Source of the DNA: Candidatus Omnitrophota bacterium | GTDB lineage: Bacteria; Omnitrophota; Gorgyraeia; 1-14-0-20-64-10 | Direction of reading: 5' to 3' | Length of the DNA: 35,136 nucleotides | Assembly (NCBI GenBank): GCA_016201735.1 | Contig: JACQCH010000018.1 | Coordinates: 1-35,136, forward strand | Part shown: piece after piece, positions 28,017-30,539 of the stretch | Position numbering within the stretch: the first letter of the stretch is position 1 | How the letters are laid out: every line of letters begins with the position of its first letter | Program-made: the position numbers and the translations under genes | Notes under the pieces: model-generated | Databases searched by the model: none | Seen by the model: only the letters and a program-made list of their open reading frames with translations | What the model was told of the DNA's origin: nothing

Positions 28017-28823
28017 ATGCTCGTGATTCGCTGCTACCTGCCGTCAGAGGCCTGGGATCAGCCGTCCGTCCGTATTGACGGCCCCCAAGCCCATCATCTT
28101 CTTCACGTTCTCCGAGTCAAGTCCGGGTCGGTCCTAGTCTGTTTCGACGGGCAGGGTCATGAGGCGGCCGCCACAGTCCAGGAGGTCTCCCGGAAGGATC
28201 TCCGGATCAAGCTGGGGGAGCGTTCCGCCCTTCCCTCGCCGCCCTGGACGATTACCCTGGCGGTTGGGATTCCTAAGAAAGGAAAGTTTGATCAGATTGT
28301 CAATGAAGCGACTCAACTGGGGGTGGACCGGATCGTCCCACTCCTGACGGCCCGGGGGGTCGTCAAGGTTCCAGACCGCTCTGCGGTTTCCTCTAACCGC
28401 AGCCACGACTCAGAGCTTACAAGTGGTGCGGTTTCCTCTAACCGCAGCCACGCCCGCTGGGTCCAGATCTCGATCGAAGCCGGAAAGCAGTCCGGGGTTG
28501 GCCGTCTGCCGGCGATCCAACCGGCCACCTCCTGGGAGACGATGATGGGCTCCATAGGCAGCTACGATGCGGCGCTGATTGCGACTCTTCAAGGGCCCCA
28601 TGAGTCGTTCGGATCTCTTCTCTCGGGTAGAACTCCGCACAGGGTACTGCTTCTTATCGGGCCGGAAGGGGATTTTACCGAGGAGGAGATCCGGCAGGCC
28701 CTGCGGGCCGGAGCCCACCGGATCTCTCTCGGTGCTGGTGTGCTTCGGTGCGAGACCGCGGCCGTGGCTGCGGTCAGCGTCGTCTCCTTCCTCCTTCGGG
28801 AGGGAAAGAAGGGCCAGGGATGA
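28017..28823 (+). CDS. rsmE: 16S rRNA m3U1498 methyltransferase RsmE
   Basis: An SPOUT-fold methyltransferase that modifies U1498 of 16S rRNA using S-adenosylmethionine, 268 residues. The N-terminal PUA-like part includes GPQAHHLLHVLRVKSGSVLVCFDGQG. The knot region has AVGIPKKGKFDQIVNEATQLGVDRIVPLLTARGVV, LLIGPEGDFTEEEI and ISLGAGVLRCETAAVAAVSVV, all family marks. Between VPDR and ARWVQISIEAGKQSG lies an extra stretch of about 25 residues (SAVSSNRSHDSELTSG...), encoded by one full and one partial copy of a dispersed repeat. Without it, length returns to the usual 240-245. Whether the loop is tolerated cannot be judged, but the frame is intact. Confidence 0.92.
   Translation: MLVIRCYLPSEAWDQPSVRIDGPQAHHLLHVLRVKSGSVLVCFDGQGHEAAATVQEVSRKDLRIKLGERSALPSPPWTITLAVGIPKKGKFDQIVNEATQLGVDRIVPLLTARGVVKVPDRSAVSSNRSHDSELTSGAVSSNRSHARWVQISIEAGKQSGVGRLPAIQPATSWETMMGSIGSYDAALIATLQGPHESFGSLLSGRTPHRVLLLIGPEGDFTEEEIRQALRAGAHRISLGAGVLRCETAAVAAVSVVSFLLREGKKGQG
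28382..28454 (+). repeat. dispersed repeat in rsmE (copies 3a partial, 3b full)
   Basis: A 26-nt perfect direct repeat beginning TGCGGTTTCCTCTAACC occurs at 28382-28407 and again at 28427-28452, 45 nt apart (15 codons). The full copy 28407-28454 matches glyS 18414-18461. Each unit contains the TGCGG/CCGCA mini-hairpin. Confidence 0.85.
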
Positions 28824-28877
28824 GCTCGGAGTGCCTGATGGGGAAGTTATAAATTTTTCCGGTGGCACCCTTGACAT

Positions 28878-28907
28878 TTGACACATCCGTGTGCCATCCT
28901 TTGTTAT
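28878..28907 (+). promoter_or_regulatory. probable promoter of the c-di-GMP riboswitch operon
   Basis: TTGACA at 28878-28883 with TGTTAT at 28902-28907, spacer 18; the -10 matches 4 of 6. A second TTGACA overlaps 7 nt upstream (28871-28876). The predicted start near 28914 lies just before the aptamer. The stretch 28824-28877 holds no gene. Confidence 0.5.
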
Positions 28908-28928
28908 GGAAGGGACAATCGAGAGTCG

Positions 28929-29037
28929 GCACCACTGACAAAGGCTAACCACCGGTAACGGTGGGGCGCAAAGCCACAGGCCCTGTGAGAGAAAACAAGG
29001 CGCTTGTCTCATGGGACGGCTGGGCTGCCAAAGGTGC
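28929..29037 (+). promoter_or_regulatory. c-di-GMP-I (GEMM) riboswitch aptamer
   Basis: The outer helix pairs GCACC (28929-28933) with GGTGC (29033-29037). The P2 hairpin CCACCG-GTAA-CGGTGG has a GNRA tetraloop. It is followed by the GEMM-type string GGGGCGCAAAGCCACAGG, and the P3 arm ends in GGCTGGGCTGCC, the usual tetraloop-receptor side. These elements in this order are diagnostic of the cyclic di-GMP class I riboswitch. The call is from recalled consensus, not a covariance search. Confidence 0.88.
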
Positions 29038-29042
29038 AAGAG

Positions 29043-29090
29043 ACGCCTGAGGGTGTCATGGTGGGAAGCCCCCTTCAGGCGTTTCTTTTA
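29043..29090 (+). terminator. intrinsic terminator, riboswitch expression platform
   Basis: The stem ACGCCTGAGGG (29043-29053) pairs with CCCTTCAGGCGT (29071-29082), followed by TTTCTTTTA. It lies 6 nt after the aptamer's closing helix and just before the first gene, so ligand binding probably decides read-through. Direction (on or off) is not clear because no explicit antiterminator could be drawn by eye. Confidence 0.82.
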
Positions 29091-29097
29091 GGGGCTA

Positions 29098-29463
29098 ATG
29101 ACAGAGATAAGAAAAGGGACGGAGGTCCGTTCTAAAATGAAAAGTCATGAGATGAAGGAGCAGGGCAAGCAGGTTCATCGGGTCGTTACCTTCTTGGATC
29201 GCCAGCAGGTGGATTTTCTGGACAAGCTGGGCAAGGATGCCCTTTTTTCGACGGGGGTAAAATTCCCTCGGACGCGGGTCATCTCAGCCCTGATTGATCT
29301 GCTGCGCAAGGCCGGCTTAAGCGGGGAGGGGTTAAGGTCCGAGCAGGATCTGGAGGAGCATTTGGTCAAGAAGCTGGCGGGCGGACTGCCGGAGGCCAAG
29401 CGCCTTGCGGGCGAACTGATGGAGGAGAACCGTGCGTCGAATTCCCCTCGAGTACGGGGATAA
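29098..29463 (+). CDS. putative ribbon-helix-helix DNA-binding protein
   Basis: The first gene behind the riboswitch, 121 residues from ATG 29098, or 108 from ATG 29137, which has GGAGG 11 nt upstream. The central part reads HRVVTFLDRQQVDFLDKLGKDALFSTGVKFPRTRVISALIDLLRKAGL. This fits a ribbon-helix-helix pattern: a short strand, a helix, a Gly turn, and a second helix beginning R-T-x-V-I-S-A-L-I. The C-terminal part is charged (SEQDLEEHLVKKL). It may be a transcription regulator or plasmid-addiction-like repressor; no named family is assigned. It overlaps the next gene by 32 nt, so the two are probably coupled. Confidence 0.7.
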   Translation: MTEIRKGTEVRSKMKSHEMKEQGKQVHRVVTFLDRQQVDFLDKLGKDALFSTGVKFPRTRVISALIDLLRKAGLSGEGLRSEQDLEEHLVKKLAGGLPEAKRLAGELMEENRASNSPRVRG

Positions 29464-29770
29464 TTTCCCTGTTCCCGCCGCAGGATCCTGGAATCCCACG
29501 GTCCCGTGGCGGTTTCCAAGGCATCAGGTCCGTTCGTCATCGCTGAAAGGTCGGTTGCTTCCCTGGGTGATGTTGGGATTGGGCGTGACATTGGGGGTGC
29601 TTTGGATGTGCTGCTGGAGAGTGGTCCCATCGGCGGGTGAGGTGGGTTCGTTGAAGGGGTTGTCGGTCGAAAAGCCGGGGGCGGCGATTGTGCCGTGGGC
29701 TCCTTCCGGGCAGCCGTCGGAGGGGATCCGTCGAACCCATCCGAAAAAGTTGAGGAGCCGGTTCGTCTGA
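29432..29770 (+). CDS. uncharacterised single-pass membrane protein
   Basis: A 112-residue protein starting at GTG 29432, preceded by GGAGGAG at ideal spacing. The first 40 residues are polar and basic with several aromatic and proline residues. One membrane helix follows (LLPWVMLGLGVTLGVLWMCCW), and the rest is Pro/Ser/Gly-rich with a basic end (HPKKLRSRF). The likely topology is N-terminus inside, but this is weakly based. It lies inside the riboswitch operon between the ribbon-helix-helix-like gene and the 245-residue protein gene. No similarity is recognised. The good ribosome site and the overlap with neighbours are the main support. Confidence 0.6.
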   Translation: MRRIPLEYGDNFPVPAAGSWNPTVPWRFPRHQVRSSSLKGRLLPWVMLGLGVTLGVLWMCCWRVVPSAGEVGSLKGLSVEKPGAAIVPWAPSGQPSEGIRRTHPKKLRSRFV

Positions 29771-29775
29771 AGGCG

Positions 29776-30513
29776 ATGTCATTTGACCTGGATACTCCTT
29801 ACTATCAAATTCCCGGTTCGCACCCGGAGGCCACTTTCGGAGCGATCATGGAGATCCTGTTGAAGACCCGGCTTAAACTGCATCTGGAGACCAACCGGGA
29901 ATTGTACGATGAGGATGTCAATGCCTATTTGGCCGGGTTGCTCGTTTCCTACATCGACCCCCAGTATCTTCATGCAATCTCCGAAGTCCTTTCCGCGTAT
30001 GACATCGATATCTTCCAGGCGGTCGCCCGCACGGAGGATCGATATCAGGCGTATTGGATTTACAAGGTGAATGCCGATGACCTCCTAATTTCCGTGGGGC
30101 TCTTCCGGAAATTTGAACAGCAGCCGAAGGGACAATTGGTCCGGATGAAGCGGTATTATTCTTCCGCTTCCGGGTATCAGAGAAAGATCTACGGCAAGAC
30201 CACGGCGGTGGGAGAGATTCAGACGAAACTGGCCGAATGGACGGAACGGTACCTGGCGATTCTGGCCGGGGCCCGGCAGGATTACATGCATTTTGTCGGG
30301 CATCGAATCACCTCGGAGGAGCTGGCCTCCCTTGAGAAAAGGCTTCCCCTTTCGAAGATGCAGGATGAATTCCTGGATCTTTACTCCACCTGGCTTAAAG
30401 GGGCCCGGGATCCGGCCTTGCGTCAGCGCCTCCTTGAGCTTCTTGAAAGGATTAAAATTCAAGACCCGACTTTCCCAGCCGACCGGCTGAAGATTTTTTT
30501 GACCTCACCTTGA
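29776..30513 (+). CDS. uncharacterised protein of the c-di-GMP riboswitch operon
   Basis: A soluble, mainly helical protein of 245 residues from ATG 29776; the frame is open back to 29695, but MSFDLDTPYYQIPGSHPEATFG looks like a natural N-terminus and AAGG precedes it. Visible features are an N-terminal helix pair (FGAIMEILLKTRLKLHLETNRELYDEDVNAYLAGLLVSYI), a mixed middle part with QAYWIYKVNADDLLISVGLFRKF, and a long helical C-terminal half with LAEWTERYLAILAGARQDYMHFVGHR. There is no signal peptide or membrane segment. No family was recognised. Its stop overlaps the next promoter, so the riboswitch operon probably ends here, although no terminator is seen. Confidence 0.8.
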   Translation: MSFDLDTPYYQIPGSHPEATFGAIMEILLKTRLKLHLETNRELYDEDVNAYLAGLLVSYIDPQYLHAISEVLSAYDIDIFQAVARTEDRYQAYWIYKVNADDLLISVGLFRKFEQQPKGQLVRMKRYYSSASGYQRKIYGKTTAVGEIQTKLAEWTERYLAILAGARQDYMHFVGHRITSEELASLEKRLPLSKMQDEFLDLYSTWLKGARDPALRQRLLELLERIKIQDPTFPADRLKIFLTSP

Positions 30514-30539
30514 CAGTTTGAGCAAAGATCAGGTATACT
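30510..30539 (+). promoter_or_regulatory. strong sigma-70 promoter upstream of cvpA-dnaG-rpoD
   Basis: TTGACA at 30510-30515 and TATACT at 30534-30539 with an 18-nt spacer, a near-consensus pair. The predicted start near 30546 gives a leader of about 36 nt to the conserved CvpA N-terminus. It probably drives cvpA, dnaG and rpoD. Confidence 0.8.

Follow-up and report, generated by a model that had tools for sequence, protein, structure and literature searches.

A stretch of 35,136 nucleotides of Omnitrophota DNA (the window) was found to carry a c-di-GMP-I riboswitch between rsmE, which ends at 28823, and the gene for an uncharacterised 108-residue protein. Computation identified an aptamer, an intrinsic terminator, a conserved association of the switch with this gene and tandem repeats at the promoter. 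Taken together, these features make it fairly probable that the element works as a transcription-attenuation OFF switch, which would respond to c-di-GMP and control a small protein that probably binds DNA and probably regulates its own operon. Judged by covariance models and folding, the riboswitch is real and its aptamer class is already known. As far as we have searched, there is no earlier description of the target family, of its pairing with the switch throughout the phylum, of the OFF wiring predicted here or of the repeat element, and the regulatory claims are computational. A search for literature on Omnitrophota with c-di-GMP or riboswitches found nothing.

An ordinary c-di-GMP-I aptamer

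The aptamer, including P1, spans positions 28929–29037 on the forward strand, as delimited by Rfam matches, its fold and its contact residues. The initial annotation had read a full GEMM-type aptamer followed by a strong intrinsic terminator and a gene, and this layout was borne out. The Infernal comparison with RF01051 (c-di-GMP-I) that it had proposed gave 57.7 bits against a cut-off of 35 (cmscan), and the expected parts were all present: a P2 loop of the GNRA type (GUAA, in CCACCG-GUAA-CGGUGG at 28949–28964), the GCGCAAAGCC core, an extended P3 and the P1 closing helix (28929–28933/29033–29037). The fold of the switch region was more stable than those of shuffled sequences (z −2.9).

At the same place, RF03167 (c-di-GMP-I-GGC) matched positions 28934–29033 of the forward strand with 59.3 bits, a marginal result only 0.3 bit above its cut-off of 59. 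AAAGGC and a compact P2 are common to RF03167 and the window aptamer, but the two differ at the A47 equivalent, which is G in the RF03167 consensus and A (28970) in the window aptamer; the listed relatives read CAAA there. We therefore did not take the RF03167 assignment at face value. If 'GGC' denotes positions 20, 47 and 92, as we infer, the window aptamer would be an ordinary GAC; the name is probably not apt here, because ordinary c-di-GMP-I aptamers have the same A that the window has at 28970. The ligand contacts of Vc2 are G20, A47 and C92 (PMC4744006). They are kept in the window as G20 at 28943, A47 at 28970 and, by alignment, C92 at 29028 or 29029, with the 27-nt spacing between G20 and A47 matching that of Vc2. 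By these residues the window aptamer is an ordinary c-di-GMP-I aptamer despite its slightly higher RF03167 score, and it is predicted to bind c-di-GMP.

GEMM-I relatives with an altered position 20 bind cGAMP, and one aptamer in our set has A at that position, so 3',3'-cGAMP was weighed as the ligand. We regard it as very improbable, given the G at position 20 in the window and in nearly all relatives and the c-di-GMP proteins of the genome. The latter, a 1.8 Mb metagenome-assembled genome (MAG) with 14 c-di-GMP-I aptamers, encodes eight GGDEF domains (four with the canonical motifs GGDEF/GGEEF) and nine PilZ domains, and c-di-GMP signalling is thus present. The aptamer with the altered position (L023:3923–4002) lies before a gene of the same family as the first gene of the window and reads AAGAGC at the G20 equivalent, a change associated with cGAMP recognition.

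A terminator compatible with the aptamer and a predicted antiterminator

The intrinsic terminator hairpin (29038–29087, forward strand) has a predicted energy of about −27 kcal/mol and runs into a T-rich tract that extends to about 29091. It begins after P1 with no overlap with the window aptamer, and the minimum-energy fold holds both structures together. Terminator and aptamer were likewise separate in 38 of the 40 classified leaders of the first-gene family; L029 and L030, which were classed otherwise, are apparently errors of the classifier.

Folding the leader with its terminator, which the initial annotation had suggested as a way to find an antiterminator, revealed a candidate. Its 5' strand CACCACUGAC (28930–28939, forward strand) consists of the P1 5' strand and J1/2, and is predicted to pair with GUCAUGGUG (29055–29063, forward strand) inside the terminator loop, giving CACCA(C)UGAC:GUCAUGGUG. 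For RNAs ending before the terminator 3' arm, the loop was paired to the 5' strand of P1 in the minimum-energy structure at five of six loci of the window's clade, and the summed energy of the antiterminator duplexes in the clade was lower than in all 2000 shuffles. Compensatory changes were seen at three loci: the duplex had co-changed to CACCAGUGAAAA:UUUUCACGUGGUG in L016 and to CGCUGAC:GUCAGUG in L017, and it read CGUGACAA:UUGUCACG in L165, an out-of-sample locus fetched later (p = 0.016). Pairing at L116 was weak (p = 0.10). When loops were exchanged between members of the clade, the pairing was not significantly weaker, with 100 of 720 permutations being as good, so the support for the antiterminator consists of the pairing and the individual compensatory changes rather than of a full covariation test.

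In the predicted ensemble of nascent RNAs from the window, P1 was dominant early. The antiterminator reached a pairing probability of 0.95 in transcripts ending at 29065–29068 and stayed near 0.45–0.5 up to 29080, and P1 with the terminator prevailed from 29083. As a point against the OFF reading, the complete leader RNA is predicted to fold into P1 and the terminator irrespective of ligand. Because the antiterminator pairs with the loop of the terminator and not with its arm, the exclusion is kinetic. Predicted in this way, aptamer and terminator are compatible and the antiterminator is exclusive with P1, which is the arrangement of an OFF riboswitch. The conserved pairing favours OFF, a direction that had earlier been left to inference. 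A different pairing was found in another clade, in which UAGGG of the P1 3' strand, after the aptamer, pairs with CCCUA of the terminator 5' arm; it is also of the OFF type.

According to the proposed mechanism, RNA polymerase would make the aptamer first. If c-di-GMP is bound, P1 would be locked, the independent terminator hairpin would form and transcription would stop. If c-di-GMP is absent, positions 28930–28939 would pair with 29055–29063, P1 would unfold and hairpin closure would be delayed, allowing the operon to be read.

This layout resembles that of Cd1 of Clostridioides difficile rather than that of pilM. Cd1 is an OFF switch of the same aptamer class, whose terminator is able to form alongside the aptamer, both of them competing with an antiterminator (PMC9262584). 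The regulated gene and the phylum differ, and so does the wiring: the Cd1 antiterminator is formed by the 3' aptamer strand (A) with the T and H strands, while that of the window would be formed by the 5' P1 strand and J1/2 with the terminator loop. The latter would represent a distinct wiring of the well-studied GEMM aptamer.

The great stability of the terminator and its dominance at full length are also what would be expected of a locked attenuator, in which the terminator is indifferent to c-di-GMP or the element mainly senses something else. Bc1 of Bacillus thuringiensis has been reported as such a case and provides a precedent (PMC11218506). We nevertheless consider this unlikely for the window, since the aptamer, the separate terminator and the complementary alternative pairing are retained together across the phylum.

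Sister switches in the same genome

Gene readings from the sequence placed the other aptamers of the genome before surface-related genes. The L003 aptamer precedes a Tad pilus operon, the L005 aptamer precedes a large adhesin-like protein beside a two-partner-secretion transporter, and others precede large signal-peptide proteins. Several of these switches should be of the ON type, as the terminators of L001, L002, L003, L006, L008 and L013 are built from the aptamer 3' strand. The L005 switch looks translational and lies over the start codon.

These other copies speak for the rival reading that the window switch is also ON, in which case bound c-di-GMP would prevent termination in the manner of the Geobacter pilM type. 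Such a direction is improbable in our view: the window terminator lies after P1 and re-uses no part of the aptamer, and the two are compatible in the minimum-energy fold. With the OFF direction preferred here, high c-di-GMP would turn the regulator off while the ON-type switches would raise the Tad pilus and secreted proteins. Automatic terminator classes were also obtained for riboswitches in other genomes, and were set aside as too mixed because the gene context was mixed and many hairpins were distant.

The switch and the first gene are paired across Omnitrophota

In named genomes, we collected 47 relatives of the first gene, all labelled Omnitrophota except one from an unclassified bin. 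A c-di-GMP-I aptamer above the Rfam threshold was located upstream on the same strand in 40 of them, and by inspection in 45, as five more (L016, L020, L039, L046 and L055) have a core interrupted by hairpin insertions. It was absent only from L037 and from L061, a fusion with a receiver domain. A phylum-wide draw, which partly overlaps the first 47, showed the aptamer at 26 of 28 testable loci. The core of the first gene was present in 39 of 193 genomes of the phylum and in eight of nine genomes of the window's own family. The genes further downstream vary by clade, which leaves the switch and the first gene as the pair that stays constant.

The operon had initially been described as uncharacterised and as pointing to a new c-di-GMP output. 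Its output is indeed uncharacterised, but the arrangement is no local oddity, for in many families of Omnitrophota the first gene is tied to riboswitches of this class; a one-off local switch was rejected because the relatives carry the same pair.

Aptamers at L014, L016, L020, L029, L039, L046, L053 and L055 contain long inserted hairpins, located between P2 and the GCAAAG core or close to there. These aptamers often fall below the Rfam threshold and are otherwise intact, and the insertions are possibly repeat elements in a tolerant site. Closely spaced pairs of c-di-GMP-I aptamers, which may be tandem riboswitches, were found at G004:C27:38640–38899 and G019:C45:15051–15413.

A small, probably DNA-binding protein with a candidate operator

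The first gene encodes a 108-residue protein of an uncharacterised Omnitrophota family (29137–29463, forward strand). Its open reading frame had been started at 29098, which does not agree with the homologues; these begin at the ATG at 29137, the most likely start, which follows a Shine–Dalgarno sequence GGAGG at 29121–29125. The core HRVITFLxRxEVDFLDKLGKDALFSTGxKLSR is strongly conserved across the phylum. Profile searches with the protein against Pfam, NCBIfam and PDB sequences gave no match, and none to a Pfam ribbon-helix-helix (RHH) family in particular.

A strand-like segment at the N-terminus is followed by two helices, in the order of an RHH fold. Comparison with Omnitrophota RHH_1 proteins in hhalign had the expected register, though its probability of 0.3% was not significant. 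AF2 monomers (pLDDT 65–72) showed the two helices in the right order with no strand formed, and Foldseek found no fold match for the two models. The protein is thus possibly RHH-like, an assignment that is statistically unsupported. A comparable case is found in the c-di-GMP-binding RHH proteins CdbA and CdbB of Myxococcus xanthus, which are likewise small, c-di-GMP-linked and lineage-restricted (PMC7156744). With CdbA it is the protein itself that binds c-di-GMP, and its action extends over the nucleoid, whereas the link of the 108-residue protein is an RNA switch in its leader, and the PDB-sequence profile search returned no relative.

The promoter of the operon is predicted at 28871–28900 on the forward strand, with the −35 element TTGACA (28871–28876), an 18-nt spacer and the −10-like CATCCT (28895–28900); transcription would start near 28908. 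A consensus promoter scan did not list this site, whose −10 is weak, while its position is conserved in the clade (L015–L019: TTGACA-N18-CATACT/CATAGT etc.). Overlapping the −35 element, a tandem TGACA direct repeat, TGACATTTGACAC, lies at about 28872–28884 on the forward strand and forms the candidate operator; the promoter with this repeat carries TGACATTTGACA. Tandem TGRCA repeats were enriched, occurring in 17 of 41 first-gene leaders versus 1 of 38 other riboswitch leaders (dinucleotide shuffles: mean 0.09, maximum 2). Their spacing is mostly 8 bp and is 7 bp in the window. Exact TGACANNNTGACAA in 12 other genomes gave five matches, all at the first-gene family and in the right orientation. 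The window's own genome has three exact matches, one of them here, and the other two are at control level, so no regulon was drawn. Some of the repeat signal is also accounted for by the −35 TTGACA, at the same place. In other clades, the repeats lie between the promoter and P1, within the transcribed leader, where they may act as RNA.

Tetramers bound to direct or inverted repeats are typical of RHH proteins (PMC7156744), and in the case of omega the repeats are contiguous heptads (PMC9499535). This RHH protein, Omega/ParB of pSM19035, is a parallel in repeat use: its contiguous 7-bp repeats resemble the short contiguous repeats proposed here, but its role is in plasmid partition and not in an operon with a riboswitch. 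From the tandem repeats and the habit of RHH proteins of binding repeats, we propose that the first-gene product autoregulates its operon through the TGACA-repeat candidate operator, a proposal to be read alongside the failed RHH profile test and the weak models. The product may instead be a c-di-GMP effector or a protein partner that does not bind DNA, with the repeats being features of the promoter or the RNA leader. The lack of a significant RHH match and the different partner genes between clades fit such a role, and we regard it as possible but on balance doubtful, because the family is fused to a receiver domain in one relative, has the strand-like segment and two helices in RHH order and has tandem repeats specific to its leaders. 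A DNA-binding protein therefore remains our preferred, probable reading. The fused relative (L061:4608–5207) joins a receiver domain (PF00072) to the conserved domain without a riboswitch, and would be controlled by phosphorylation.

A possible c-di-GMP branch in Omnitrophota

Omnitrophota are common and uncultured, and some are believed to be predators or parasites whose attachment relies on Tad pili and giant adhesins (PMC10066038, which makes no mention of c-di-GMP riboswitches). The switch described here would give a c-di-GMP circuit to such a phylum, naming an undescribed protein family as a dedicated target and pointing to a new branch of a signal that is important for attachment in bacteria. 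The logic predicted under c-di-GMP is opposite for the regulator (OFF) and the surface genes (ON). Only tentatively do we extend this to a phylum-wide branch, in which an OFF riboswitch would govern new small DNA-binding regulators that control their own operons through contiguous 7–8-bp TGACAnTT repeats, opposed by ON riboswitches for Tad pili and secreted or adhesin proteins, so that c-di-GMP might flip the cell between two programmes.

Downstream genes

The second gene of the window (29432–29770, forward strand, start approximate) overlaps the end of the first and encodes a small protein with a single transmembrane segment and the motif YGDNFPVP..SWNP..PWRFP. Both motif and hydrophobic segment were visible in clade members, although L019 is partly masked by N. 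The third gene (29776–30513, forward strand) encodes a 245-residue protein starting with MSFDLDTPYYQIPG and is conserved in the clade. Neither the second gene nor the longer third-gene reading frame from 29695 had a Pfam or NCBIfam match. A near-consensus sigma-70-like promoter, TTGACA-18-TATACT with 11 of 12 matches, was observed at 30510–30539 before cvpA-dnaG-rpoD. These three genes need not be under the switch because of this promoter-like site, and we do not claim control of replication or of the sigma factor.

While the window's clade has the small transmembrane protein and the protein lacking a family match after the first gene, a second clade (L020, L032, L034 and L038) has a degenerate-GGDEF HAMP protein and pilB/pilT-type ATPases, and its locus lies downstream of or adjoins genes that look like mreB-to-rodA. 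TIGR04073-like and beta-propeller proteins follow the first gene in a third clade. In one clade, a highly basic small open reading frame of about 34–40 residues (e.g. MKKILHRALAKAKKQHKKHMNFLKALRLFEGMPLFGIRR) was conserved between the terminator and the first gene (L044, L045, L046, L047, L048, L050, L056, L058 and L060), apparently a missed small protein.
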